Below are positions 137 through 12,001 of a stretch of 12,001 nt of DNA, one piece after another. The position numbers were made by a program, and so were the translations under genes. This DNA is from Planctomycetaceae bacterium (GTDB lineage Bacteria > Planctomycetota > MHYJ01 > SBBU01). How positions within the stretch are numbered: position 1 is the first letter of the stretch; each line of letters begins with the position of its first letter. The DNA is taken from positions 1-12,001 of the forward strand of contig SBBU01000202.1 of NCBI GenBank assembly GCA_005239585.1, written 5' to 3'. The notes below the pieces were generated by a model. It was not told where the DNA came from. It was given only the letters and a program-made list of their open reading frames with translations, and made no database searches.

Positions 137-182
137 ACTAATTGAATTTCAGAGGTTTAGCGTATTATTAAAAGGAGATGCC

Positions 183-1556
183 ATGAAGGTGAAAACTTGC
201 GGCTTGCTGGCGGCTCTCACTATATGCTCATCAATCCTCATCAACTTTCAAGATAAAAACCAAAAGGGCGAGGGCCCCAAAGTAGGAGAGAATGCCCCGG
301 ACTTTAAACTCAAAGTGCTCACTAATAGCAAGACAGAGATTAAACTCTCGAGCTTTAAAGACAAAAAGCCGGTTGTTCTTATATTCGGAAGCTACACCTG
401 ACCACCATTCCGCAAGCAAGCGGATGCGCTTGAAAAGATGTACCTTACATACAAAGACAAGTCTGAGTTTTTCATAGTTTACATACGTGAGGCACATCCC
501 GATGACGGCTGGCAGATGGATGTCAATAAAAAAGACGGGATTGTATATAAACAGCCAAAGACGGAAGAGGGGCGCAATAAAGTTGCAAGTGACTGTGTGA
601 AAAGCCTGAAACTCAGCATCCCTACCCTCATAGACAACATGGATGACTCAACTGAGGAAAACTATGCAGGCTGGCCAGACAGAATTTACATCATTGGCAA
701 AGACGGCAAGGTGGCATACAAAGGTGATAAGGGTCCGCGCGGATTCAGGCCGCAGGACGCAGAGACTGTCCTAAAAAAAATCATTGGAAAGGACGAGCCT
801 GAACAAACATCGCAGCCGACAGATCTAAAGGACTTGAAGCTGGAAAAGGACGAAAAAAATTCAGATGGTGAGATAGCGGCTTTTAGATTCAAATATAAAT
901 ATAGCGAAAAGGACGAGGTTAAGGGTGTTTTGGCCAGACCCAGCGGGAAGGGCCCCTTCCCTGCTGTTATTATCAATCATGGTAAAGGCGGAAATGCAGA
1001 GGGTGTTAGCAAGTTTCTTGGAGCTTTGTTAATCAAGCAAGGCTACTCCGTCATCGCATGCGATCTAACTCACGCAGAGAAAGATGGCGACACCAAGACA
1101 TTTGCAGGGAGCAAGGAGAATGCAGACCGAATTATAATGTGCATAAAGATACTTGAGAGTCTCCCCTACATTGACTCAAAAAAGATCTGCATGCTCGGTA
1201 TCAGTATGGGCGCCTTTGCGACTGTAGCCGCCTGCACTCAAACTGACAAAATCAAGGCTGCAGCGGTGGTTTCAGGCGGAATCCGTGACAAGGGGGGTCT
1301 TGACTCGGAAGAATACATTGAAAAAATCACAGCACCCGTCATCATAATTCACGGCGGAGATGACAAGACAGTAAAGCCTGAGCTTGCACAAAAACTAAAA
1401 GAGGCCCTTGACAAGCATGGTAAGACATCAGAGCTTAAAATTTTCGATGGTGTAGGCCATTCTGTAATCAAAGACAAGCGCGACGAGGCCATGGAGCTCA
1501 TCTTCAAGTTCTTTGAGAAACACTTGAAAGGACAAAAGAAAGGGGATAGAGACTAG
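183..1556 (+). CDS. Selenoprotein: deiodinase-like thioredoxin-fold domain fused to a dienelactone hydrolase-type domain
   Basis: One frame of 457 residues is read through an in-frame TGA (codon 73) as selenocysteine. ATG 183 is preceded by AAAGGAG. Residues 5-21 are hydrophobic with a basic N-terminus, indicating a signal peptide or membrane anchor; there is no good lipobox. Residues 35-205 match the iodothyronine deiodinase family (thioredoxin fold): GENAPDF, then GSYT-U73-PPF at the catalytic site, YIREAHPDDGW at about 100-110, and GWPDRIYIIGKDGKVAYKG near 163-181. Residues about 225-450 form an alpha/beta hydrolase of the dienelactone hydrolase kind with nucleophile motif G-I-S-M-G (Ser341), Asp393 or Asp394 after HGG, and His426 in GVGHS. 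Family knowledge suggests redox or dehalogenation chemistry for the first domain and ester or lactone hydrolysis for the second. Bacterial substrates are unknown, and a thyroid-hormone role is not implied. A Cys-to-TGA nonsense mutation is the main alternative, but uninterrupted coding on both sides argues against it. Confidence 0.85.
399..401 (+). other. In-frame TGA read as selenocysteine (Sec73)
   Basis: This TGA is the only stop codon in the frame from 183 to 1556. It falls between GSYT and PPF, which is exactly the position of the catalytic selenocysteine in deiodinases (GSxT-U-PxF). The codons immediately after it translate to PPFRKQADALEKMY, continuing the family motif in the same frame with no need for a frameshift. 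Confidence 0.85.
413..432 (+). promoter_or_regulatory. Candidate bacterial SECIS hairpin
   Basis: CAAGC (413-417) pairs with GCTTG (428-432). A two-base bulge AA (418-419) follows, then a GC:GC upper stem (420-421 with 426-427) closing a GGAT loop (422-425). The loop guanines lie 21-22 nt after the TGA, within the range known for bacterial SECIS elements. The layout of lower stem, 5'-side bulge, GC:GC and GG-containing loop resembles that of E. coli fdhF. It would recruit SelB with Sec-tRNA. A competing hairpin at 406-426 (7 bp with a bulged T408, loop AAGCAA) is also possible and probably more stable, so the functional fold is uncertain. Confidence 0.5.
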
Positions 1557-1610: not shown

Positions 1611-2519
1611 ATGAAGGTTTCTATAATTATCCCGACCCACAATACCAAAGAAATAACTCTCAATTGTTCCAAGTCGGTCATGTCACTTGGAGAAGTCGTT
1701 GTCATAGATAACGGGTCAACGGATGGTACGGTGGTTGAACTCAAAAAACTTGGAGTTAACGTCGTAGAGAACAGCAAAAATCTCGGGTATGCAAAGGCAG
1801 TAAATGCAGGGGCAAAAGCCTCGAATGCGGAGCTTCTTTGTTTCTTAAATAGCGATGCAATCTTGACGAAAGAATCTCTCGATATAATGGTTGATTTTAT
1901 ATCCAAAAACCCAGATACGATAGTAGGGGCCGACCTCGTAAACCAGCGCTCGTTCGCCAAGATCCCAAGCTTCGCCAATCAGATCCTCCCCAGATCAATC
2001 TTTCGCCAAAAAGGCATCTTGAGTGAAAACGACATGACTATTGAAGTGGAATCGCTTGTTGGTGCCTGCATGATGACGACACGAGTTACTTACGAAAAGC
2101 TACAGGGCTTTAACGAAGATTACTTTGTATTCCTTGAAGAGACCGACTTTTGTTTCCGAGCCCATAAAATAGGCATCAAAAGCTATGTTGTAAAAGGAGC
2201 TCGTGTCGAGCACATACAGGGGGCTACAAAGAAAAAATTTCGTACACAGGCCAAGGTAGAGTATACAAGATCGCTTTTTACCTTCTTTAAGAAGAACAAA
2301 TCTTACTTTGAGTACTCGATGCTGAGACTCTTTTATCCACCCAAAATTTTTCTGTCTGCGTTTGGACTCTTAATAGCAAATGTGGTCACATTTGCTCTGC
2401 TGAAACCGTTGCGTGAACGATTATCCACTTATTGCTGGTTGTTCATGTGGCTCTTAACGTTTTGCCCTCGCACTATGGGGCTCGATCCAAGAGGCAATCG
2501 ATCGTTGAAGACGCGATGA
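1611..2519 (+). CDS. Family 2 glycosyltransferase (rhamnosyltransferase-like)
   Basis: The 302-residue protein would transfer a sugar from a nucleotide donor to a cell-surface polysaccharide or lipid-linked acceptor at the cytoplasmic face of the membrane. The N-terminal half is a GT-A fold. SIIIPTHN occupies residues 4-11, VIDNGSTDGT (31-40) binds the nucleotide, FLNSDA (78-83) is the metal-binding DxD-equivalent, and EETDFCFRAH (176-185) carries the likely catalytic acid. The pattern matches the WbbL-like rhamnosyltransferase group, but the actual sugar cannot be read. Two hydrophobic stretches near the C-terminus (about 246-264 and 272-284) may anchor it in the membrane. No ribosome binding site precedes ATG 1611, but the sequence MKVSIIIPTHN fixes the N-terminus. 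The last 66 bases overlap the 3' end of the convergent peptidase gene. Confidence 0.88.
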   Translation: MKVSIIIPTHNTKEITLNCSKSVMSLGEVVVIDNGSTDGTVVELKKLGVNVVENSKNLGYAKAVNAGAKASNAELLCFLNSDAILTKESLDIMVDFISKNPDTIVGADLVNQRSFAKIPSFANQILPRSIFRQKGILSENDMTIEVESLVGACMMTTRVTYEKLQGFNEDYFVFLEETDFCFRAHKIGIKSYVVKGARVEHIQGATKKKFRTQAKVEYTRSLFTFFKKNKSYFEYSMLRLFYPPKIFLSAFGLLIANVVTFALLKPLRERLSTYCWLFMWLLTFCPRTMGLDPRGNRSLKTR

Positions 2520-4163
2520 ATGATCAAGCGGCACTATCTTGTACTCAAGCTCATCCTTCCCTCCCAATTCAACCACAACATTACAAAGTAAATGATTTCT
2601 AAAGAGTGTAAAGCACACCTTATCACCCACAGTTTTTTGATAAAGCTGTTTATCCCAGCTCTCAGGACTCACCCTGTACCCGTCTATGGCAACAATCTCA
2701 TCACTTGCTGACAACCCGTCGCGCATTGCAGGGGAACCCTCAAGTACATTTGTGATTGTTACTTTCTCAGCGTATTTAGTTACTACAGCCCCAAGATAGG
2801 CCCTGTTTTTCATCGGCCCCTTTTCATCTTTTTTTAGCTGCCTCGTGAGTCTATATCCTGCATATGCTAAAAATTTGCCAAAATCAACTTCTTTAGCACC
2901 AAACACGTAATCATCAAAGAACTTGTCAAATGACTTGCTCGTCAGATCTGCCACAATCTGCTGAAGACCATCCTCAGGAATAGACCTATTAAACTTGTAA
3001 AGCTCTCTCATGCAGTGATCAAGAGTTTTTCGATTCTTGGTGGCCTGTCTAAGCGCAAGATCCAGAGCAAACCCAACAAGCAAACCTTTATGATAATAGG
3101 AGATCGTAGAGTTTATTGACTGTTCATTAGGTTGATACTGCTTTATCCACGTATCAAAGCTTGAGTCATAAAGACTTTGCACTTTGCTGCCGGGGCGTTC
3201 CTCGTATGATTTTATCTTACTTGCAATGTCCTCTAAAAACTTTTCTTTAGAGACTATCCCAGCTCGAACAAGAAGCAATGATGCATAATAATCTGTAACG
3301 CCCTCCATAAGCCATAAAAGGCCAGTGTGCATCTCCTTTTCGTAATCGAACGGATATAGCTTCTCGGGGATAATTCTTTTCACATTCCAAAGGTGAAAAA
3401 ACTCGTGTGCGGCAGTGTGAGCAAAATTTACATATCTTGAATGTGGCTCAAAATCAAAGAATGTATACTGAAGACTCGTAGAGTTTGCGTGTTCCAGCCC
3501 ACCGCCCCAGGAGGAAGTAAGATGAACTATAAATGTATAATTTTCATATGGAAGCTCCCCAAATATTCCTTCACACTCCCTAATAATTTTTCCCGTGTCG
3601 CTAATCAGTTTCTTTTTGTTGTAATTTCCCTTGCCATGAAAGACAAATTCGTGCCTTTTACCTCGATATTCAAAACCAAAGCTGTCAAAGTTTGATATCT
3701 CAATTGGTGAATCGGCGAGTGCGTCGTAATTCTGTGCAGAATAGGTTGAGGAGCCCGCCTTTCGAAGCGAGGTTGCAACCCTCCAGTTGCGCGGCTTGGT
3801 TATCCTGAGGGATACCGCGGAGTTTCGCTGACTTTCTGGATACATAAATACAGATGTGCCGTTTATGTAGGCATGACTATTATCGAGGTGGCTGGTTCTA
3901 ACAGAGAGCTCAAACGCATAGGCCTTGTAAGAAACTGTAGGGTTGTGACCAAAGACTCGCCATCTAGATTTATCAATCTTCTTAAAGGGTTTATTCGATG
4001 TAAACCCTTCTACATTCTTTGCAAAGTCTCTGATCTTGTATGAACCGGGCGTCCATGCAGGCATTATAAAATCAGTGTGCGATTCCCAGGTTTCTACTTT
4101 GATCGTAACCAGAAACAGATGGTTATTCGGCCGTGGAAAGCTAAGGTAGTATCTTACTGCCAT
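2454..4163 (-). CDS. M61 family glycyl aminopeptidase-type metalloprotease with C-terminal PDZ domain
   Basis: The 569-residue protein belongs to the zinc-dependent M61 peptidases (PF05299), which remove N-terminal residues, preferring Gly or Ala in characterised members. Residues 1-160 are the beta-rich N-terminal domain, including the typical MPAWTPGSY motif (34-42). The catalytic domain contains GGGLEH (220-225), the zinc motif HEFFH (253-257) in the family signature HEFFHLWNVKRI, and the third zinc ligand Glu287 in WLMEGVTDYY. A PDZ domain occupies about 455-535 (AVVTKYAEKVTITNVLEGSPA). No signal peptide is seen, so it is probably cytoplasmic. Its ATG shares one base with the TGA of the EIIA gene (TGATG), which indicates translational coupling. 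The tail after the PDZ domain is encoded where the gene overlaps the glycosyltransferase gene. Confidence 0.94.
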   Translation of the reverse strand: MAVRYYLSFPRPNNHLFLVTIKVETWESHTDFIMPAWTPGSYKIRDFAKNVEGFTSNKPFKKIDKSRWRVFGHNPTVSYKAYAFELSVRTSHLDNSHAYINGTSVFMYPESQRNSAVSLRITKPRNWRVATSLRKAGSSTYSAQNYDALADSPIEISNFDSFGFEYRGKRHEFVFHGKGNYNKKKLISDTGKIIRECEGIFGELPYENYTFIVHLTSSWGGGLEHANSTSLQYTFFDFEPHSRYVNFAHTAAHEFFHLWNVKRIIPEKLYPFDYEKEMHTGLLWLMEGVTDYYASLLLVRAGIVSKEKFLEDIASKIKSYEERPGSKVQSLYDSSFDTWIKQYQPNEQSINSTISYYHKGLLVGFALDLALRQATKNRKTLDHCMRELYKFNRSIPEDGLQQIVADLTSKSFDKFFDDYVFGAKEVDFGKFLAYAGYRLTRQLKKDEKGPMKNRAYLGAVVTKYAEKVTITNVLEGSPAMRDGLSASDEIVAIDGYRVSPESWDKQLYQKTVGDKVCFTLFRNHLLCNVVVELGGKDELEYKIVPLDHSSRLQRSIASWIEPHSARAKR

Positions 4164-4630
4164 CAGGGTTTGGCTTCTTCTTTTCGCAGAGTGCTCATTA
4201 CGTCAGCTGCAGTCTTTGATTTTAATAAAGTATCGCGCATCTCTTTGGAGTTGAGGAGCTTCGCGATTGCGGCAAGCGTCTTGATATGAACCTGGATTTT
4301 TTTCTTTGGCACCACTAGGAGCATAATCAGGGTTGCAGGGATATTGTCCTGTGTTTGAAATGGAACCCCCTGCGGCGATATTGCAAAGGCACAAAGTGCG
4401 TCATCTATCTCATCAACCGAGGCATGTGGGAGGGCCACACCATGCTCCATACCTGTCGATGCTATATTTTCTCTGGTCAAAAGTGCGTCGAGCACGGTTT
4501 TTTTATGCTCCATTTTAAGCTTTCCTTTTGTGACAAATCCATTGACCAGCCTATCAATAGTCTCCCATTTGTCTCTAGCCTTGAAATTCAGGTGAATTGT
4601 ATCTTCAGCTAAAACATCGCTTATTTTCAT
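4163..4630 (-). CDS. ptsN: PTS EIIA domain protein of the nitrogen/fructose type (EIIA-Ntr-like)
   Basis: The 155-residue single-domain protein fits the PTS EIIA type 2 family (PF00359). It has the N-terminal MKISDVL start, STGMEHGVALPH (58-69) with the phosphorylatable His69, and LLVVPKKKIQVHIKTLAAIAKLL in the C-terminal half, the usual 'H..L..lA..l' helix. With no fused transporter domains and no sugar genes nearby, it is likely a regulatory EIIA-Ntr. Such proteins receive phosphate from EI-Ntr and NPr and regulate nitrogen, potassium or envelope processes. The ptsN symbol rests on domain type and length, since rpoN is not next to it. AAAGGG lies just before the ATG. The gene lies between valS and the M61 gene and is coupled to the latter by TGATG. 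Confidence 0.9.
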   Translation of the reverse strand: MKISDVLAEDTIHLNFKARDKWETIDRLVNGFVTKGKLKMEHKKTVLDALLTRENIASTGMEHGVALPHASVDEIDDALCAFAISPQGVPFQTQDNIPATLIMLLVVPKKKIQVHIKTLAAIAKLLNSKEMRDTLLKSKTAADVMSTLRKEEAKP

Positions 4631-4728
4631 TCCGCCCTTTTGACTAGCTCTACACTAGCTCCTTCTACTAAAATCTGTCTCATATATCCTATCTTACTGT
4701 TTCTGCCGGTCGAAGGAGAGAGATGCAT
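4627..4728 (-). CDS. Possible small ORF between valS and the EIIA gene
   Basis: On the minus strand, 9 nt after the valS TAG, an ATG at 4728 opens 33 codons. They end in a TGA that overlaps the EIIA start as ATGA. The frame begins MHLSPSTGRNSKIGYM and ends ELVKRAE. AGTGGGG lies just before the ATG and could serve as a weak ribosome binding site; an internal ATG (codon 16) follows AGATAGGA. The spacing and overlap are typical of operon genes, and it fills almost the whole gap. The sequence is not a family I recognise. It may be a leader peptide coupling valS to EIIA translation, or an open frame arising by chance. Confidence 0.3.
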   Translation of the reverse strand: MHLSPSTGRNSKIGYMRQILVEGASVELVKRAE

Positions 4729-4737
4729 ACCCCACTT

Positions 4738-7338
4738 CTAGACGCTATGGGAAGACAGATCTCTTATCGCGGATTCTATCTCCTTGAGTTGCCTCTTTAT
4801 TTCTTCCAACCTTTCCTCCTCTTCTTTAACAACCTCGGGAGGGGCCCTTCTTATAAAGTCCTTATTACTAAATTTTCTCTCAACTGCATCCAGTTTGTCA
4901 AGCAAATCCGACTTTCTTGACTCCTGCCTTTTGATCTCCGCCTTGATGTCTATCTTCCCCTCCAGAGGCACGTACATTTGAAATCCGGACGAGACATAGC
5001 TGGCAGAGGCCCTGGGTTTTCCCTTTCGAAATTCGACTCTGTCAAGCTTTGCTAGGAAGATTATAATTGGCTTGAATTTATCAAATTTGAAATGAGCTGC
5101 CTCGGTCGCGTCTATTACCACGGAAAGCCTTGTTATTGATGGAATATTCATTTTGTTCCGAATATCCCTCACTGCCCTTATTGCCTCGAAACATAGGGCC
5201 AAGTTGTCTTCCAACTCACGATCTCTCTTCTTTTCATCCGGCCGAGGCCACGCTAAGGTAGCAAGCACCTTCTTGCCAAATCTCTGCCAGATCGCTTCGG
5301 TTGCAAATGGAATCAATGGATGGAGTAGCTTTAGGATTGTGAAAAGCATATGGCGAAGAGTTTGTTGCGTGGTTTCTGATTTTAAATCACGCTTTGAAAG
5401 TTCTATATACCAATCGCAGTATTCATCCCACACAAAGTGATACAAAAGCCTTGCGGCGGCACCAAATTCATATAAATCTAAAAGTTTGGTATATTCCTCG
5501 ATCACGGTCTGAAGCCTTGAAACTATCCATCGATCTTCTAGAGAGAGAATCGATGGCAGTTCCTCTGAATAATTTGTAGAGTTTGTAAAGACAAATCTGG
5601 CTGCGTTCCAGACCTTGGTGATAAAATTTCTCGCCGTCTCGATCTTGTCAGGGGAAAACCTTATATCCTGCGACTGCGTTACCTGAATAACAAGACCAAA
5701 TCTTAGGGCATCCGCCCCATATTGATCCATTATTTCAAGGGGATCAACTCCCGTTCCGAGCGATTTGCTCATTCGCTTCCCCTCGAGTGTCTGAATCATT
5801 GGATTTATTACAACATCAGAGAATGGTTTTTCGTGCAAAAACTCAAGGCCAGTTGTCACCATCCGTGAAACCCAAAGATTTATGATATCCCGGCCCGTCA
5901 CGAGCGTGCTTGTTGGATAGAATCGCTCAAGACTTTGTGTGGCGGCAGGCCAGCCAAGCGTCGCAAAGGGCCACAGCGCACTTGAAAACCATGTATCAAG
6001 TACATCTGTTTCCTGTACGAGATCAGTCGACTTACATTTTTCACATGCATTGAGTTTCTCTATTGAGGCCGCTTGCGCCTGGCAACTCTTGCAATGCCAC
6101 ACTGGAAGCCTATGACCCCACCAGATTTGTCTGGATATACACCAGTCCTTAATGTTTGATAGCCAATCGAGGTAAACCTTTTTGAATCTGTCCGGGAAAA
6201 ATTTCACATCTCCGCTTTCAACTGCTCTTGCTGAAGCTTTCGCCAAGGGCTCCATCTTCACAAACCACTGCAGTGACAGATACGGCTCAGTGACGGTACT
6301 GCATCTGTGGCAGCGAGATAGTGTTACTGTATACTCTTCTGTTCGTTCCAGCAGATTCTGTGTTATAAGCTCTTCTATGATTTTCTTCCGCGCGGCAAAT
6401 CGATCCATGCCAGCAAATTGACCACCGTTAGTATTGATAATGCCTTTTTCATCCATCACGCAGATTCTTTGTAGGTTATGTCTTTGACTGCACTCAAAAT
6501 CATATGGGTCGTGTGCCGGTGTAATTTTCACGGCGCCTGTGCCAAAACTAGGATCCACAAAATTATCGGCAATGATCTCTAGTCCCCGGTTAACCAGCGG
6601 TAGTCGAACCTTTTTACCGACAAGTTGCATGTATCTTTCATCCTTTGGGTTTACTGCTACAGCCACGTCACCTAACATCGTCTCCGGGCGTGTTGTTGCT
6701 ACTACAACGTGACCGCCACCGTCAAGATGCGGATACTTTATAAACCAAAGACCGCCCTTCTCTTCCTTCCGTTCAAGCTCAAGATCAGAGAGGGCCGTCA
6801 GGCACCTTGGACACCAATTCACAATGTACTCTCCTCGGTAGATCAAGCCCTTGTTGTAGAGCGAAACAAAAGCGACCCGCACGGCATGTGAGTAACTTTG
6901 ATCCATCGTGAAGCGGAGTCTTGTCCAGTCGCACGAGCAACCCAGTCGCTTGAGCTGACTTACTATAGTGGCTTCATACTTGTCTTTATGGAAAAGAGTT
7001 CGCTCGACGAACTTGTCACGGCCAAGGTCAAACCTTGTAAGTTTTTCCTTGGCAAGCTCTTTCTCTACTACAAACTGAGTTGCGATCCCTGCATGATCCG
7101 TGCCCGGCAAGTACAGGGCCTCGAAACCTGACATTCTCTTATATCTTGTCAAAAGGTCCTGTAGCGTATTATTGAGCGCATGCCCGATGTGCAGTGAACC
7201 TGTAATATTTGGCGGTGGGATTACAACCGCAAATGGTGGTTTGGACGAGTTTTCATTGGCCTTGAATGCCCCTGCCTCTTCCCAGAGCCTATAGATCTCC
7301 GGCTCTATTTCCTTAAAATTAAATCTGGTCTCAAACAT
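4738..7338 (-). CDS. valS: Valyl-tRNA synthetase
   Basis: The 866-residue class I aminoacyl-tRNA synthetase charges tRNA-Val with valine in the cytoplasm. The HIGH motif is at 50-53 in PPNITGSLHIGHALN. The CP1 editing domain lies about 200-350 and includes TTRPET (215-220) and ITPAHDPYDF (272-281), which clear mischarged threonine. The KMSKS loop is RMSKS at 522-526. Cysteine pairs at 176/179, 343/346, 416/419 and 432/435 look like zinc knuckles. The anticodon-binding helical domain follows, and the last 65 residues form the ValRS tRNA-binding coiled coil. Length is normal for the family. No Shine-Dalgarno precedes the ATG at 7338, but MFETRFNFKEIEPEIY is the expected N-terminus. It is the first gene of the likely valS-EIIA-M61 operon, and no T-box leader is visible. 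Confidence 0.98.
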   Translation of the reverse strand: MFETRFNFKEIEPEIYRLWEEAGAFKANENSSKPPFAVVIPPPNITGSLHIGHALNNTLQDLLTRYKRMSGFEALYLPGTDHAGIATQFVVEKELAKEKLTRFDLGRDKFVERTLFHKDKYEATIVSQLKRLGCSCDWTRLRFTMDQSYSHAVRVAFVSLYNKGLIYRGEYIVNWCPRCLTALSDLELERKEEKGGLWFIKYPHLDGGGHVVVATTRPETMLGDVAVAVNPKDERYMQLVGKKVRLPLVNRGLEIIADNFVDPSFGTGAVKITPAHDPYDFECSQRHNLQRICVMDEKGIINTNGGQFAGMDRFAARKKIIEELITQNLLERTEEYTVTLSRCHRCSTVTEPYLSLQWFVKMEPLAKASARAVESGDVKFFPDRFKKVYLDWLSNIKDWCISRQIWWGHRLPVWHCKSCQAQAASIEKLNACEKCKSTDLVQETDVLDTWFSSALWPFATLGWPAATQSLERFYPTSTLVTGRDIINLWVSRMVTTGLEFLHEKPFSDVVINPMIQTLEGKRMSKSLGTGVDPLEIMDQYGADALRFGLVIQVTQSQDIRFSPDKIETARNFITKVWNAARFVFTNSTNYSEELPSILSLEDRWIVSRLQTVIEEYTKLLDLYEFGAAARLLYHFVWDEYCDWYIELSKRDLKSETTQQTLRHMLFTILKLLHPLIPFATEAIWQRFGKKVLATLAWPRPDEKKRDRELEDNLALCFEAIRAVRDIRNKMNIPSITRLSVVIDATEAAHFKFDKFKPIIIFLAKLDRVEFRKGKPRASASYVSSGFQMYVPLEGKIDIKAEIKRQESRKSDLLDKLDAVERKFSNKDFIRRAPPEVVKEEEERLEEIKRQLKEIESAIRDLSSHSV

Positions 7339-7368
7339 AAACGTGTAAAAACAATCTTTATCAGGGTA

Positions 7369-7424
7369 GGTATTTTACCAGAATAATGTTACTTTTTGTA
7401 ACTACAATTGTTACCCTTGGTAAC
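7369..7424. promoter_or_regulatory. Array of inverted repeats, candidate regulator binding sites
   Basis: Three inverted repeats are regularly spaced: GGTA-TTT-TACC (7369-7379), GTTAC-TTTTT-GTAAC (7388-7402) and GTTACC-CTT-GGTAAC (7410-7424). Their centres, 7374, 7395 and 7417, are 21 and 22 bp apart, about two DNA turns, placing them on one face of the helix. Extra GTAAAC half-sites occur at 7435 and 7451. The two stronger repeats lie about 120-155 bp upstream of the predicted sigma-54 start near 7545, a normal position for an enhancer-binding protein. They also overlap the valS promoter. The cognate regulator is not in the window, and the motif is not one I can assign. Confidence 0.45.
7372..7401 (-). 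promoter_or_regulatory. Likely sigma-70 promoter for valS, extended -10
   Basis: Read on the minus strand, TTACAA (7401-7396) is followed 18 bp later by TAAAAT (7377-7372), a 5/6 match to TATAAT preceded by TGG, the extended -10 TGn element. Transcription would start near 7365 and leave a leader of about 27 nt. The -35 hexamer overlaps the inverted repeat centred at 7395 and the -10 overlaps the one centred at 7374, so a protein binding these repeats could block or steer valS transcription. Confidence 0.45.
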
Positions 7425-7518
7425 CTCCAAACGGGTAAACATAACATTTCGTAAACCCTTTCTTACTCGACTGTTTCACTGGCAAATCTGATTTTTTTCA
7501 CCCCTGCTTTCTTCTACG

Positions 7519-7534
7519 TGGCACAACTCTTGCT
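7519..7534 (+). promoter_or_regulatory. Sigma-54 promoter (-24/-12) for the DUF2851 gene
   Basis: TGGCACAACTCTTGCT matches the sigma-54 consensus TGGCACG-N4-TTGCW at every defined base except the seventh (A instead of G). The GG and GC elements are at the required 12-bp spacing (G7520 to G7532). Transcription would begin near 7545, just before the ribosome binding site AAAGAGG (7547-7553) and the ATG at 7561. Sigma-54 promoters need an ATP-driven activator bound upstream, and the inverted repeats at 7388-7424 are natural candidates for that site. Confidence 0.7.
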
Positions 7535-7560
7535 CACTCATAAGTTAAAGAGGTCGACAA

Positions 7561-8754
7561 ATGAAGAGAGTGAATGATCTTATAAAAGAAAGTGATCTAC
7601 ACCTTATATGGTCATTAGGGCTGTATCATAATGACAAATTAATGACAGAGGATTCTGCGCCTGTACTCGTTGAGTTCCCCGGAATTCCATCTGCGGAGGG
7701 TGGCCCTGACTTTCGCTTTGCTCGGATCTTTATTGGCGGTGAGCTGCGCATCGGCAGCGTTGAACTTCATCTATACCATAACGGGTGGACGGCCCACCAG
7801 CATCAAAACAATCTTCAGTATTCTAATATAGTGTTGGAGGTTTGTCTATTCAGGTCTGAAGTTGTTGCGCGTGGATCGATTCCTGTGCTTATCCTTGAAC
7901 CATATCTCAAAGAAAGCCTGTTTGACGTCGCTTCGCATTTAACCCAAATATATCCACAGGATAAAAAATCACATCCGAGCATAGGAAGGATACTAGATGC
8001 CTATGGGGACACGCGTATAAGAACAAAAATAAACCATCTTAAGCTACTCCTCGAATATACGCCTTTAGATGAACTTCTTTATCGCGAATTAATGGCCACT
8101 CTAGGATATAAACACAACAAGGCCCAGTTTTATGAGCTAGCAAAGCTTGCGCCATATGAAGCAATTCGAACCCTTTCGGCTGAGCAAATTGAGAATCTCC
8201 TTTTAGAAAAATCAGGACTGAGACTATCTTCTTCGCACAATGACACTGATCACTCTAAAATGGCTCATGTACTCTGGAGAAAGCATTGTGTAAGACCAAC
8301 CAATTATCCAGAGCACAGGATTAAGGCGGCCGGTAAATTGTTCTCAAACGTAAACTACAAGGGGATTAATAACTCCTTCAGTGATTTGACAAACATTAGA
8401 CCTCGAAAGTTTGTTGCTGAATTAACATCTTCCATACGAACCAGCTCTGACAACTTGATTGGGAAAGCACGCGCTCAGGAGATGGTATTTAACGTGATAA
8501 TTCCATTTTTCATTGCACAGGCTGAATGCAAGCAAGATTTTGAACGAGCAAAAACGCTCTATAATCTTTACAAGACCTCAGGCCCTCCCTCTGATAATTT
8601 TGTGACTCGGTACATGAAAAATATGATCTATACAACTAGGCCAAAAATTGATAACGTACGCCAATACATGGGTCTTTTGCAGTTATACTCTGGGGTAACT
8701 ATGGCCAGTGCGCCTAAAGTTGCTGTCTCTGGCATCAGTGAAGAGATAAGATAG
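7561..8754 (+). CDS. DUF2851 family protein
   Basis: The 397-residue protein belongs to DUF2851 (PF11013), whose function is not established. The diagnostic N-terminal block is clear: PSAEGGPDFRFARI (43-56), GSVELHLYHNGW (65-76), then H79 and H81 and NIVLEV (89-94). The C-terminal part has FNVIIPFFIAQAE, the family's usual late helix. The arrangement of G-P-D50 and E68-x-H70 recalls the PD-(D/E)xK nuclease active site with His replacing Lys; that is my inference from pattern only. AAAGAGG lies 7 nt before ATG 7561. No signal peptide or membrane segment is seen, so it is probably cytoplasmic. It stands alone behind a sigma-54 promoter and converges with plsC, so its expression is probably conditional. 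Confidence 0.87.
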   Translation: MKRVNDLIKESDLHLIWSLGLYHNDKLMTEDSAPVLVEFPGIPSAEGGPDFRFARIFIGGELRIGSVELHLYHNGWTAHQHQNNLQYSNIVLEVCLFRSEVVARGSIPVLILEPYLKESLFDVASHLTQIYPQDKKSHPSIGRILDAYGDTRIRTKINHLKLLLEYTPLDELLYRELMATLGYKHNKAQFYELAKLAPYEAIRTLSAEQIENLLLEKSGLRLSSSHNDTDHSKMAHVLWRKHCVRPTNYPEHRIKAAGKLFSNVNYKGINNSFSDLTNIRPRKFVAELTSSIRTSSDNLIGKARAQEMVFNVIIPFFIAQAECKQDFERAKTLYNLYKTSGPPSDNFVTRYMKNMIYTTRPKIDNVRQYMGLLQLYSGVTMASAPKVAVSGISEEIR

Positions 8755-8781
8755 CGTCTGGGCAGAACCCTTTTTTTCGAA

Positions 8782-8797
8782 GCTCGGCTAGTCGAGC
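8782..8797. repeat. Small hairpin between convergent genes
   Basis: GCTCG (8782-8786) and CGAGC (8793-8797) form a 5-bp stem with a 6-nt loop in the 78-bp gap between the DUF2851 stop and the plsC stop. No T-run follows it on either strand (the T-run precedes it on the plus strand), so it is not a standard intrinsic terminator. It may still weakly pause or protect transcripts. Confidence 0.25.
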
Positions 8798-8832
8798 ATG
8801 GAACCCTGCACCAAGACTGCTCATCCACAGAT

Positions 8833-9450
8833 TTACAGTTGCGGCTCTCTGGTACGTGGTAGATTCTGACGCCAAGTTTCCTTGAGCGACGACACAATCT
8901 GATCGAGCAGTTTTCTTCTGTCAGAGTCTGGACTGACAGACTCCAGAAAGAACACTCGTACTCTGCCCGGGCAAGGAAGAAATCTTCCTCTGGGCAAAAT
9001 CTGGTATGCCCCCATCACAAGCGTAGGAACAATAGGTACATTTGCCTCTTGCGCAATTAGCGTAAAGCCCCCTCTAAAGTGGGATAGCTTACCATCTTTC
9101 GTCCGCGTACCCTCCGGGAACATCATAACCGGCATTCCTGATTTGAGAGTCTTTACTGTCTCCTTGATAGCAGAAAGATCCGCCTCTGCACGTCTTATAC
9201 TTATCCTTCTAAATGGAAATGTTAGGATCCGGAATATAAAACTTTTAAACAGCTCTTCCCTTACTAAATAAGTTATCTCGCAACCAAGACAGGATGTAAT
9301 TAAAAAAAGGTCTAGATAACTTTGATGGTTTGAAACCAAAAGAAACGGCCCCTTGTTCGGTACGTTCTTTCTACCAAATGCAGTCAACCCAAAAAGCACT
9401 ACTGACAATAGTCTGCATGGGTTAACCAGCAGCCTATACCATAACCTCAT
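8833..9450 (-). CDS. plsC: 1-acyl-sn-glycerol-3-phosphate acyltransferase
   Basis: The 205-residue enzyme acylates lysophosphatidic acid to phosphatidic acid, the second step of phospholipid synthesis, at the inner membrane. With the ATG at 9450 the protein begins MRLWYRLL. The catalytic NHQSYLD (H-x4-D) lies at about residues 41-47 and the substrate-binding FPEGTRT at about 111-117, followed by FRGGF. A hydrophobic N-terminal stretch (about 8-22) would anchor it. Length is normal for the short PlsC form. An upstream TTG at 9459 would add three residues, but I prefer the ATG, which has AAGG at a reasonable distance. The gene begins 17 nt inside the 3' end of cmk, indicating translational coupling. 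The cmk-plsC order is seen in several bacterial groups. Confidence 0.92.
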   Translation of the reverse strand: MRLWYRLLVNPCRLLSVVLFGLTAFGRKNVPNKGPFLLVSNHQSYLDLFLITSCLGCEITYLVREELFKSFIFRILTFPFRRISIRRAEADLSAIKETVKTLKSGMPVMMFPEGTRTKDGKLSHFRGGFTLIAQEANVPIVPTLVMGAYQILPRGRFLPCPGRVRVFFLESVSPDSDRRKLLDQIVSSLKETWRQNLPRTREPQL

Positions 9451-10060
9451 TTTTTGCAAACCTTAACATCCTTTGTAAAACTTTATTTATTGAACGACCT
9501 GTGCTGTCAATGTAAATCATATCCGCTTCCCTCACTAAGGGCCCTGCCTTTCTTGTTCTGTCTCTTCTATCTCTCAGTCGAAGATCGCTTACGACTTTGA
9601 GCCTTGTACCTTTAACCTCTTTCTGTCGCCTAGCTGCCCTTTCACTTAATTTTGCATCGAGAAAAAATTTAACCTGCGCGCGTGGAAAGACCACGCTCCC
9701 CTGATCACGCCCTTCTGTAACAATACCTTTGCTTTTAGATGAAGCCAATCTGCGAATCAGTTTATTAATCTCGCCCCGCAGCAACGAATTGTTTGCCACT
9801 TTAAACGCGTTACGGGTAACGTGTTTAGATCTTATCGCCCTGCCCGTTGGCTGTCTCTTGAGTTTTATAGATCTGATTAATCTTATCATCTCGCCCGTGT
9901 TCTCGAGGTCTAATCTTTTTCTCAGCCCGACGAGCGTGACGTATCTATATATCGAACCCATGTCTAGATAGTTTAGACCGAGATTTTTTGCCAGGAGTTT
10001 TGCCATCGTTGTCTTGCCGGCCCCCGCAGGCCCATCAATTGTTATTATAAACTTTTTCAT
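9434..10060 (-). CDS. cmk: Cytidylate kinase
   Basis: The 208-residue P-loop kinase phosphorylates CMP and dCMP to the diphosphates using ATP, recycling nucleotides in the cytoplasm. The Walker A motif GPAGAGKT is at 10-17. LDMGSIYR (32-39) is the NMP-binding strand, usually LDTGAMYR. TEGRDQGSVVFP (115-126) matches the family signature EGRDIGTVVFP, and RDRRDRTRKAGPLVREAD (164-181) carries the lid and base-binding residues. At 208 residues it is slightly shorter than the common 220-230. Its ATG follows a good -10 box by about ten bases with no Shine-Dalgarno, so the transcript may be leaderless. plsC overlaps its 3' end. Confidence 0.95.
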   Translation of the reverse strand: MKKFIITIDGPAGAGKTTMAKLLAKNLGLNYLDMGSIYRYVTLVGLRKRLDLENTGEMIRLIRSIKLKRQPTGRAIRSKHVTRNAFKVANNSLLRGEINKLIRRLASSKSKGIVTEGRDQGSVVFPRAQVKFFLDAKLSERAARRQKEVKGTRLKVVSDLRLRDRRDRTRKAGPLVREADMIYIDSTGRSINKVLQRMLRFAKNEVMV

Positions 10061-10069
10061 CTGGCAGTT

Positions 10070-10098
10070 ATAATATTAAACTCGCTTTGTAACGGCAA
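10070..10098 (-). promoter_or_regulatory. Sigma-70-type promoter for cmk-plsC
   Basis: On the minus strand TTGCCG (10098-10093, 4/6) and TATTAT (10075-10070, 5/6) are 17 bp apart. The -10 ends only nine bases before the cmk ATG at 10060, so a start about seven bases after it leaves a leader of two or three nucleotides. It faces away from the tRNA promoter. Confidence 0.5.
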
Positions 10099-10109
10099 AC
10101 TTGTTTAGA

Positions 10110-10138
10110 TTTAGTTTTTGGAATTTTTTTGATACTAT
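10110..10138 (+). promoter_or_regulatory. Tentative promoter for the tRNA-Leu gene
   Basis: TACTAT (10133-10138) lies in the context GATACTATTT and is a fair -10 box. The element 17 bp upstream, TTTAGT (10110-10115), is a poor -35. A start near 10145 would give a 5' extension of about 25 nt before the mature tRNA at 10170. Confidence 0.28.
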
Positions 10139-10169
10139 TTGAGCCTTGGATTTGGGTTTTCCCAGAGAC

Positions 10170-10254
10170 GCCGGAGTGTTGGAACTGGTAGACAAGCCGG
10201 TCTCAAAAACCGGCGGCCTTAACGGCCGTAAGGGTTCAAGTCCCTTCTCCGGCA
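10170..10254 (+). tRNA. tRNA-Leu, anticodon CAA
   Basis: The gene folds as a class II tRNA. The acceptor is GCCGGAG/CTCCGGC (7 bp, no mismatch). The D arm has stem TTG/CAA and a GG-containing loop. The anticodon stem CCGGT/ACCGG closes the loop CTCAAAA with anticodon CAA at 10204-10206. The long variable arm pairs CGGCC with GGCCG, and the T arm AAGGG/CCCTT carries TTCAAGT. The discriminator is A at 10254 and CCA is not encoded, so it must be added by nucleotidyltransferase. It reads UUG codons. The long variable arm could suggest Ser or Sec, but the anticodon excludes both. Confidence 0.97.
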
Positions 10255-10370
10255 CATTAGCATGATTGGTCTGGCAAGTGTAACTGAGGAAATGATATGG
10301 TTAGGAGACCGAGGAAACGGGTTGCATATTCCTGATCAATTGCCCTCCCATTGTAAAGACTTTTATCTAC

Positions 10371-10376
10371 TATAAT
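10371..10376 (+). promoter_or_regulatory. Possible -10 box before the VOC-family gene
   Basis: A perfect TATAAT lies 13 nt before the ATG at 10390. The nearest -35-like hexamer, TTGTAA (10351-10356), is only 14 bp away, too close for a standard promoter, and nothing better is found at 16-18 bp. The GAAGGTG ribosome binding site (10379-10385) would lie around the start site, so promoter use is doubtful. Confidence 0.25.
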
Positions 10377-10389
10377 TTGAAGGTGTGCT

Positions 10390-10733
10390 ATGGAGATAGA
10401 TAAGCTCAACTCTCGAATGGTATACTTTGAATTTTCATCGAAAGATCCAGCGGCGCTTGGCGAGTTTTACAAGCGATTGGGATATAAAACTTGGCCTGCT
10501 AAGGGCTATCTTCAAGTAAAGCTAGGCAATCACCCGTTAATCGGTTTCGCCGAGTCGCAGATCTCAAGCCAAACGAGTTTCTACCTTCACGTCGATGACG
10601 TTCAGGTGGCCTATAGCACTCTGTGCGAACTAGAGCTTGATCCATCTCCCGTCTCAACAGAGAACTGGGGCACCCTTCAACATCAATTACTGATCCGGAT
10701 GGCAGAGCCCTAGTATTTACCAAAGAGCAATAA
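10390..10733 (+). pseudogene. VOC/glyoxalase superfamily protein with a one-base frameshift near the 3' end
   Basis: ATG 10390, preceded by GAAGGTG, opens a single-domain vicinal oxygen chelate protein. MVYFEFSSKDPAALGEFYKRLGY, SFYLHVDDVQVAY and the loop ENWGT match small glyoxalase-like proteins, which bind a metal and act on diverse small substrates or resistance targets. In the original frame it then reads LQHQLLIRMAEP and stops at 10713. In the next frame, from 10686, the expected family ending appears: ITDPDGRALVFTKEQ, with a stop at 10731-10733. Restoring one A near 10686 (CAT CAA ATT ACT GAT) joins the two parts into a normal 114-residue protein with the usual spacing between W-G and DPDG. 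It is either a recent disabling deletion or a sequencing error; no slippery heptamer suggests programmed shifting. The substrate cannot be inferred. Confidence 0.8.
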
Positions 10734-10742
10734 TGATAACTC

Positions 10743-10771
10743 GGTTAACAGCTCTCTTAACTTGGTTAACA
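10743..10771. repeat. Two GGTTAACA repeats upstream of nth
   Basis: GGTTAACA occurs at 10743-10750 and 10764-10771, exactly 21 bp apart, with a partial copy CTTAAC (10756-10761) between them. GTTAAC is itself a palindrome. Two helical turns of spacing suggests a pair of regulator sites upstream of nth, but nothing identifies the protein. Confidence 0.28.
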
Positions 10772-10803
10772 TTACTTTTACCTGCTTAAATGAGTTGAAA
10801 AAT

Positions 10804-11442
10804 ATGTTTCACGTGAAACAACGGGCCAAAAGGATCATTACACACTTGGGCAAGGAATATCCTGATGCAAAATGCGCACTGGAATACAGCAATGATGTCC
10901 ATTTGCTCGTAGCAACGATACTATCGGCGCAGTGCACGGATAAAAGGGTCAATATAGTTACAAAGACACTATTTAAAAAATACAAAACTGCCTTTGATTT
11001 TGCCCGTGCCAAACTAGATACTTTTCAAGAAGAAATACGCTCTACGGGGTTCTACAGAAACAAGGCAAGGAACATCATAAACTCATGCAAGATCCTCGTT
11101 GCCAAGTCCAAGGGCAAGGTACCAGATAGTATGGATGGGCTTCTAGAGTTGCCGGGTGTCGCCAGAAAGACAGCTAATGTAGTCCTAGGGACGTGGTTTA
11201 AAAAAGCAGAGGGGGTTGTAGTTGATACTCATGTTTCCCGGCTTTCAAAGAGACTTGGGCTAACTCAAAACGAAGACCCAGTTAAGATTGAACAGGACCT
11301 TATGGAGGCGGTAGCCCGCAGGTCATGGATAGATTTCTCACATATGCTAATCCTGCATGGAAGGGCAGTCTGCAAGGCACGAAGACCTTTATGTGATCAG
11401 TGTGTGCTCAACAAGATTTGCCCCTCGGCCTTTAAGGTTTGA
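10804..11442 (+). CDS. nth: Endonuclease III (DNA glycosylase/AP lyase)
   Basis: The 212-residue base-excision repair enzyme removes oxidised pyrimidines and nicks the resulting abasic site. The helix-hairpin-helix LELPGVARKTANVVL carries the catalytic Lys122, and VVDTHVSRL holds the catalytic Asp141. The C-terminal C190-x6-C197-x2-C200-x5-C206 binds the [4Fe-4S] cluster. Length matches E. coli Nth (211). I chose ATG 10804 (MFHVKQRAKRI) over a TTG at 10762 in the same frame because the family starts here; the ribosome binding site is weak (GAG, 9 nt upstream). The first six codons coincide with a perfect parS site, so the N-terminal residues may be shaped by that element. It converges with the downstream gene, leaving only 8 bp between the stops. 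Confidence 0.96.
   Translation: MFHVKQRAKRIITHLGKEYPDAKCALEYSNDVHLLVATILSAQCTDKRVNIVTKTLFKKYKTAFDFARAKLDTFQEEIRSTGFYRNKARNIINSCKILVAKSKGKVPDSMDGLLELPGVARKTANVVLGTWFKKAEGVVVDTHVSRLSKRLGLTQNEDPVKIEQDLMEAVARRSWIDFSHMLILHGRAVCKARRPLCDQCVLNKICPSAFKV
10805..10820. other. parS chromosome partition site
   Basis: TGTTTCACGTGAAACA is a perfect 16-bp palindrome identical to the consensus bacterial parS (TGTTNCACGTGAAACA). ParB binds it, spreads along DNA and loads condensin, with ParA driving origin segregation. It is embedded in codons 1-6 of nth and encodes MFHVKQ. Most chromosomal parS sites lie near oriC, so the window is probably origin-proximal. A 16-bp match like this is not expected by chance in 12 kb. 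Confidence 0.9.
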
Positions 11443-11450
11443 CCTCCTGC

Positions 11451-12001
11451 CTATTTGATCCTTACCTTGACCGTCGCTGCTCCCAAGATAATGAGGTCTC
11501 GTCGCTCCTTGTTCCTAATAGTCATATTCGTCAGCAAGGCATCCTCTGTCAGGGATGGAAAAAGGCAGGCTATCTCGGTAAGCGGAATACTCTCTAGCAT
11601 CTTGCCCTTGTACATGAAGCTAAAAGCCTCTAGCGTTGTCTGGGCTATAAGGTCCTTGTTATTAAAACCAATTTGAAAGGCTTCAATCATGCTATCAACG
11701 TCATGATAGGGCGGAATATCTGGCCTTATATAGTCACCGCCGCCTACCATGATCGTAACCTCCTGATTCTTCTTTAGCCCCTTTGGAAGACTCAGAGAAA
11801 TCTCCTGGGTCTCATCTGGCAAATAACGCTTCTTTAAGAGGAGTTTTATTCTGACTGTGCCCCCATCTGGCACCTCATTCTCGACTGGCCACGCCTCTTT
11901 TAGCCAGAAATTCCTCAACTTGTTCTTCAAATTCGTTGAACCACCCAGTTTCACAAACAGCAGGTACACCTCGGGAAGCCAAGAAGGGCTTCCGAAAGGC
12001 A
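11451..12001 (-). CDS. C-terminal part of a protein resembling SpoIVB (S55) domain proteins, open at the window edge
   Basis: The minus-strand frame ends at TAG 11453-11451 and stays open to the window edge (183 codons visible), so the start lies outside. A GTG at 11969 is in frame, but the preceding codons are also open and it need not be the start. The visible part has an Ig-like strand pattern (PDGGTVRIKLLLKKRY, then EISLSLPKGLKKNQEVTIMVGGG). After that comes a segment of the form 'S-M-I-E-A-F, N-N-K-D-L, LESIPL', and it ends in GAATVKVRIK. This order resembles the C-terminal region of S55-peptidase-domain proteins, in which a 'dosage-like' beta domain is followed by a 'lP.s....l' segment. 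The catalytic S55 domain would lie upstream and is not visible, so the assignment is tentative. Confidence 0.5.
   Translation of the reverse strand, partial: PFGSPSWLPEVYLLFVKLGGSTNLKNKLRNFWLKEAWPVENEVPDGGTVRIKLLLKKRYLPDETQEISLSLPKGLKKNQEVTIMVGGGDYIRPDIPPYHDVDSMIEAFQIGFNNKDLIAQTTLEAFSFMYKGKMLESIPLTEIACLFPSLTEDALLTNMTIRNKERRDLIILGAATVKVRIK

Follow-up and report, generated by a model that had tools for sequence, protein, structure and literature searches.

Frame and annotation of the interrupted gene

The gene at positions 183-1556 of the window (the whole stretch of 12,001 nucleotides that was analysed) raises the question of whether the TGA within its frame ends a gene or is read as selenocysteine (Sec). 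Translation of the forward strand gave 457 codons followed by a TAG stop at 1554-1556, with the TGA at 399-401, codon 73, as the single in-frame stop ahead of the terminal TAG. A sequence-only reading of this DNA, which had reported a 458-codon frame, was right that this TGA is the sole internal stop, but its count included the terminal one. The frame is open for 384 codons after the TGA, and the probability of a 385-codon open run in random DNA of the same base composition is about 5e-10. The motif around the TGA is GSYT-U-PPF, and YIREAHPDDGW and GWPDRIYIIGKDG lie 3' to it in the same frame, in agreement with the earlier observation that family motifs continue on both sides of the TGA in one frame. 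We consider it very probable that the TGA is recoded as Sec in one fused protein of 457 residues, with the following features.

173..177, forward strand: AGGAG, likely serving the full-length gene as ribosome-binding site (TATTATTAAAAGGAGATGCC ahead of ATG 183)
183..1556, forward strand: very probable selenoprotein gene, deiodinase-like domain plus DLH-type hydrolase, 457 aa, TAG stop (translation, Pfam)
183..257, forward strand: putative signal peptide or membrane anchor at the N-terminus, residues 1-25 (judged by eye; the model has a low-confidence helix at 8-26)
276..779, forward strand: deiodinase-like thioredoxin-fold domain, residues 32-199, PF00837 (Pfam, structure alignment, model)
399..401, forward strand: in-frame TGA, very probably read as Sec73 (translation; TGA conservation in homologues)
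417..432, forward strand: SECIS-like hairpin, stem CAAGCG (417-422), loop GATG (423-426), stem CGCTTG (427-432) (folding, covariation, redraws)
489..497, forward strand: codons of Glu103-Ala-His105, deiodinase relay residues (homologue counts; compare Dio2 Glu160/His162)
594..596, forward strand: codon of Cys138, proposed resolving cysteine (homologue counts)
921..1484, forward strand: DLH-type alpha/beta hydrolase, residues 247-434, PF01738 (Pfam, fusion alignment, model)
1203..1205, 1362..1364 and 1458..1460, forward strand: codons of Ser341, Asp394 and His426, likely hydrolase triad (GxSxG motif, invariant columns)

ATG 183 has the AGGAG 5 bases upstream, and ATG 438, the start of the downstream piece, is without a comparable site. 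P0001, the corresponding database protein, consists solely of the downstream 372 aa; standard gene calling has thus split the gene in two, as the sequence-only reading predicted, leaving a database entry without the active site.

The neighbours at 1611-11999 look ordinary, comprising genes for a glycosyltransferase, an M61 peptidase, PTS EIIA, valS, a DUF2851 protein, an acyltransferase, cmk, tRNA-Leu(caa) and nth; the ORFs at 10390-10710 (forward strand) and 11454-11969 (reverse strand) had no Pfam or NCBIfam match. These neighbours bear on one alternative, namely that TGA is a sense codon throughout this genome, read as Trp or Gly with no selenium involved. Such a code would fit protein P0014, which has Trp at the Sec column (GSSTWLPF), possibly encoded by TGG or by TGA under another code in the source annotation. 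However, the glycosyltransferase, EIIA and nth frames all terminate at TGA, indicating that TGA is not sense genome-wide here and already contradicting this alternative. In addition, the window's valS is full length relative to its homologues with no TGA inside, homologues of the interrupted gene have U or C at the column, and SelA and SelB accompany the TGA form (see below). We regard a genome-wide sense TGA as having a negligible chance of being correct.

Domains and predicted structure

The match to PF00837 (T4_deiodinase) covered residues 32-199, across the TGA, with an E value of 2e-30 and 106.3 bits against a gathering cut-off of 27. The piece after the TGA alone scored 65 bits, and the 72-aa piece before it had no PF00837 match and weak AhpC-TSA/Redoxin matches. 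The spanning match, together with the TGA at the same column in homologues, bears out the earlier placement of the TGA at the catalytic column of deiodinases. The best NCBIfam match was NF038285 (deiodinase_rel; residues 29-197, E 6e-65), yet its score of 219.9 bits was below the model cut-off of 250. By sequence, the closest solved structures to the first domain were Dio3 (E 2e-19) and Dio2 (E 1e-17), and the AlphaFold model (pLDDT 90.8, pTM 0.69) aligned with the mouse Dio2 core 9h48 with a TM score of 0.80 by target, an E value of 2e-13 and 30% identity. The first domain is genuinely related to the iodothyronine deiodinases.

PF01738 (DLH) matched residues 247-434 with 75.5 bits against a cut-off of 21. 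The gene had been expected to yield a hydrolase lacking its N-terminus; a hydrolase is present, but Pfam shows it to be a separate DLH domain that follows an intact deiodinase domain in the fusion. Structural matches of this second domain were acetyl xylan and ferulic acid esterases, dienelactone hydrolases and S9 peptidases; the pdb_via structure rows span residues 217-451 and hardly bear on the first domain. The domain carries the motif GISMG with Ser341, and Ser341, Asp394 and His426, invariant in four aligned fusions, likely form its catalytic triad. By eye, the N-terminus resembles a signal peptide, suggesting that the protein is probably exported.

TGA at the selenocysteine column in homologues

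A TGA-specific DNA pattern found at least 119 stretches in species-representative genomes. Among the matches listed, 117 were judged from their translations to be homologous, with TGA at the same codon, and the 113 of these that were scanned all matched PF00837. Among 80 matches listed, the TGA-form loci include members of Acidobacteria, Planctomycetota, Chloroflexi, Proteobacteria, Verrucomicrobia, Actinomycetota and Myxococcales. One of the 117, L080, has a frame that departs from the family soon after the TGA. Two genome matches were set aside: L105, a chance match, and L089 (minus strand), whose deiodinase-like motif holds a second stop, TAA/TAG, two codons ahead of the TGA; the frame beyond the TGA is short there, and the locus may be a pseudogene. 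The viral match of the pattern, L001, was also a chance one, with several in-frame stops. Full-protein peptide-pattern scans of genome_contigs and viral_contigs revealed no relative. Alignment A1 contained the window and 113 of the 117 locus proteins; L041, L056, L086 and L119, truncated by the end of a contig or locus, were omitted. Alignment A5 excluded L135, whose row was on the wrong strand.

Because the pattern fixed F-G-x-x-T-U-x-P-F together with the opening bases of the codon that follows, and barred Cys at position 71, conservation of those columns in the pattern set is partly selection; residue counts were therefore repeated on 25 Sec homologues found without the pattern. When no TGA was required, 96 of 392 Planctomycetota genomes matched at E<=1e-20, and by our own count TGA was present in 107 of the 121 matches listed. 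With at least 117 loci from the pattern and this proportion in Planctomycetota, Sec deiodinase homologues are common in environmental bacteria. The sequence-only reading had suggested counting Cys and Sec at the catalytic column, and among 30 Planctomycetota loci fetched from the protein search there were 25 with U, two with C and three outside the motif definition. L125, L140 and L150 hold two TGAs, the second of which follows the domain and looks like a true stop. A search among database proteins returned Cys homologues and some proteins missing one side of the Sec column. In G508:C262, a stop-free deiodinase homologue lies about 2 kb from a TGA one (4623-5735 and 7781-8911), a possible Sec/Cys duplication.

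The tree used 130 of the 140 Sec sequences, those that passed a length and identity filter. The six rows of the starred clade that contains the window are without exception TGA forms, and L121 is 63% identical to the window. At least six changes between Sec and Cys were needed, three of them forced by starred branches, suggesting that Sec/Cys exchange in this family has probably been repeated.

These data also bear on the possibility that a Cys-type deiodinase gene has acquired the TGA by nonsense mutation or through an error of sequencing, with the frame after it being a decaying remnant or a separate gene starting at ATG 438. TGA is one base from TGT and TGC, and Cys homologues do exist, as this explanation would need. 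However, the TGA recurs at the same codon in at least 117 genome loci and in the 25 loci from the protein search, the nearest rows of the tree are TGA forms, the 384 codons after the TGA are intact, and the SECIS-like hairpin described below is weak in Cys forms. Moreover, some database proteins break at this place: the metagenome protein P0003, like P0050, begins at the Met that corresponds to ATG 438, downstream of the codon, and P0012 stops at the codon with ...FGSYT, although these are proteins only and a contig end is possible. We consider a mutation or error highly improbable.

SECIS-like hairpin after the TGA

In the window, the hairpin CAAGCG-GAUG-CGCUUG has G as the first base of its loop; L122 has an identical stem with the loop GCUG. 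When the 36 bases after the TGA were folded and compared with synonymous redraws, the mean z was -1.21 for 140 Sec sequences (25 from the protein search and 114 from the pattern, in addition to the window) and -0.27 for 32 Cys homologues (Sec versus Cys, p 9e-7), the Cys controls being related, with 30 of 32 loci from one order. The same Sec genes gave a mean z of -0.14 both 30 and 50 codons further on. Of the sequences with a hairpin, 135 of 139 Sec and 5 of 27 Cys ones had G in the opening two bases of the loop.

The helix covaried. In 63 distinct sequences of one register, 93.9% of cells were paired and 109 two-sided changes were observed, against 33.5 +/- 4.0 after shuffling, with a covariation score of 0.69 in register and at most 0.28 when slid. 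In 45 sequences of two other registers, which include the window, 84.9% were paired, with 24 two-sided changes against 7.0 +/- 1.8. Rows were grouped by pairing register, which favours the paired percentages and, less, the compensatory counts.

Taken one by one (the window and 116 of the 117 loci), 31 of 117 sequences had a folding energy below the 0.05 level, and the 42-nt region of the window was not significant by free energy (p 0.085). By a hairpin score of our own, chosen after the hairpin had been seen, the window's hairpin was equalled by 92 of 20000 synonymous redraws, and the same score was equalled at 32 of 3254 codons of the window's genes. Rfam at gathering scores identified only a tRNA in the window.

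Selenocysteine machinery in related genomes

SelB was above cut-off in 35 of the 39 genomes holding loci L002-L040, compared with 2 of 14 control genomes. A second set comprised 44 Planctomycetota genomes: 29 with the TGA form, 11 without it and four kin picked by their valyl-tRNA synthetase. Both classes, TGA and no-TGA, were hand-drawn from search rows, out of 84 and 12, respectively; the match of G110 begins after the Sec column, leaving its class unsure, and G307, in which the same is true, was counted with the kin. In this set, SelB was found in 25/29 TGA-form genomes, 4/4 kin and 5/11 genomes without the TGA form, and SelA in 28/29, 3/4 and 5/11, respectively. tRNA-Sec was counted at 65 bits or above, because the gathering score fires in 5 of 14 controls, and was found in 24/29, 2/4 and 4/11. 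The four TGA-form genomes without SelB, and the one without SelA, are perhaps incomplete assemblies.

Six genomes (G292, G125, G408, G251, G262 and G086) had neither SelA nor SelB, and none of them had a TGA match in the Planctomycetota search. Within the no-TGA class, G251 does show a single TGA in a longer match, but the motif of its locus L184 carries Cys. The valS of the window itself had matches of up to 69%, with Planctomycetota matches at 54% and 53%.

By clustering, 8 of the 147 loci contain a selB-like gene and 5 contain a selA-like one; NCBIfam confirmed one of each. The selB-like genes lie near the Sec deiodinase gene in L010, L011, L022, L040, L070, L073, L107 and L112, and selA-like genes are also present in L010, L022, L040, L070 and L073.

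With TGA conserved in homologues, a covarying hairpin linked to the TGA, and SelA, SelB and tRNA-Sec in related genomes, a Sec-containing deiodinase homologue, as first proposed from the letters of the DNA, is the best reading of the gene. In this organism, UGA 399-401 would be decoded as Sec by SelB and tRNA-Sec, aided by the hairpin at 417-432.

Fusion of deiodinase and DLH domains

Two fusion searches were run on a set of 5.8 billion proteins, with about 8000 candidates scored in each and with 98 and the best 120 of 141 listed. Among the matches listed, PF00837 and PF01738 were both present in P0001 (the window), P0002 (68% identical) and P0003 (44%). P0012 has the reverse order, with the DLH domain first, followed by a stretch that by eye is like the start of a deiodinase domain. 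The occurrence of the same domain pair in two orders suggests that the deiodinase and DLH domains are functionally linked, and such fusions hint at a metabolic partner for the deiodinase-like family in bacteria. P0006 and P0007, considered as further fusions, were dropped for want of a PF00837 match.

When 114 Sec proteins were scanned, DLH was found in the window protein only, and EF hands in up to 11. A search of 392 Planctomycetota genomes with the DLH domain at E<=1e-30 gave no match, which by itself shows nothing. The joining of deiodinase and DLH domains appears to be rare and undescribed. A second esterase partner for the family was observed in L113:367-2505, a fusion in which a Sec deiodinase homologue is combined with a PDZ domain and with a carbohydrate esterase of the SASA type.

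Catalytic residues and possible mechanism

Relay residues Ser, Thr, Tyr, Glu and His have been described for Dio2 and Dio3 in the available passages of PMC11592359, and S70, T72, U73, Y100, E103 and H105 of the window protein align with the deiodinase relay residues. Glu103 and His105 were present in all 112 Sec homologues compared, and Ser70, Thr72, Tyr100, Glu103, His105, Asp151 and Arg167 in all 25 Sec homologues found independently of the pattern. The position of the second relay His (Dio2 His182) is occupied by Pro125, with Pro in 92 of 111 homologues and in 23 of the 25 pattern-independent ones. The proximal Cys two residues before Sec (DIO1 Cys124) recycles DIO1, according to the part of PMC9141512 available. 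The corresponding position is Tyr71 in the window protein and was Cys in 0 of the 25 pattern-independent Sec homologues; the 114 pattern-found sequences are uninformative on this point, Cys codons having been excluded there. Cys138 was present in 96 of 109 Sec homologues of the larger set (absent in 13) and in 24 of the 25 pattern-independent ones.

On these residues and the predicted fold, the product is most likely one exported, peroxiredoxin-like Sec redox enzyme tied to an esterase. In the peroxiredoxin-like fold of the first domain, the selenolate would attack an oxidising or halogenated substrate. A selenenylsulfide may then form between Sec73 and Cys138, with Cys138 probably as the resolving residue, and would be reduced by a cellular thiol system; we give this Cys138-resolved redox cycle an even chance. 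The second domain would act as a serine hydrolase, esterase-like, on the same or a linked substrate. Peroxide, sulfenate and halogenated compounds are all candidate substrates.

A more specific form of this explanation, rather than an alternative to Sec, is that the Sec domain reductively dehalogenates small aromatics, whether iodinated or carrying another halogen, and that the hydrolase opens a lactone or ester product. Ser70, Thr72, Tyr100, Glu103, His105 and Trp110 match residues named for Dio2 and Dio3, the fusion partner is a member of the dienelactone hydrolase family, and the reversed fusion also exists. However, the second relay His is replaced by Pro125, with Pro in most homologues, and the DIO1-type proximal Cys by Tyr71, with Cys in none of the 25 homologues; the fusion, moreover, indicates linkage rather than substrate. 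Dehalogenation is therefore an unlikely activity, and we are still more doubtful of the fuller proposal of a bifunctional exported selenoenzyme whose deiodinase domain would dehalogenate an aromatic and whose hydrolase would open its ester or lactone. If the latter were true, the protein would represent bacterial detoxification or foraging chemistry from which, or beside which, the animal thyroid-hormone enzymes arose.

Comparison with known systems

The statement of the sequence-only reading that bacterial Sec deiodinase homologues are little characterised is true of their biochemistry, but Sec bacterial deiodinase-like proteins were named in 2005. In the Sargasso Sea data, both Sec and Cys deiodinase-like proteins of bacteria were reported with a bacterial SECIS, and four Sec sequences were tabulated (PMC1088965, as far as the available text goes). 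The window protein shares with that family PF00837, Sec at the catalytic column, a bacterial SECIS and the existence of Cys homologues, and differs in its hydrolase domain, which is unmentioned for that family in the available text. Two reviews, in the parts available, give the motif of the family as UxxC (PMC13188914, PMC9312934), whereas the motif in the window is UPPF. A fusion selenoprotein of a deiodinase-like domain and an EF hand was reported in 2021 (PMC9402790, available in part); there, too, the family is fused to a partner, which in the window protein is a C-terminal DLH-type hydrolase.

Searches of open-licence papers found no selenoprotein in print that combines a deiodinase with a dienelactone hydrolase, and no paper on a bacterial or Acidobacteria deiodinase selenoprotein or on iodothyronine deiodinase with Planctomycetes selenocysteine; for deiodinase with planctomycetes, only cattle-feeding and algal-selenoprotein papers were returned, judging by the listing. 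The Sec bacterial deiodinase-like kind is thus already known, and the DLH architecture was not found in print among these papers.

Compared with vertebrate DIO1-3, the window protein has the same fold, the same GS-x-T-U-PPF motif, the Glu, His and Trp of the EAHxxDGW segment, and Arg167. It differs, however, in being without the proximal Cys and the second relay His and in carrying the fused hydrolase. In the alignment, Cys138 precedes the column that holds the vertebrate distal Cys by eight residues, and this conserved residue, in place of the vertebrate proximal Cys, may offer a testable recycling mechanism for the family.
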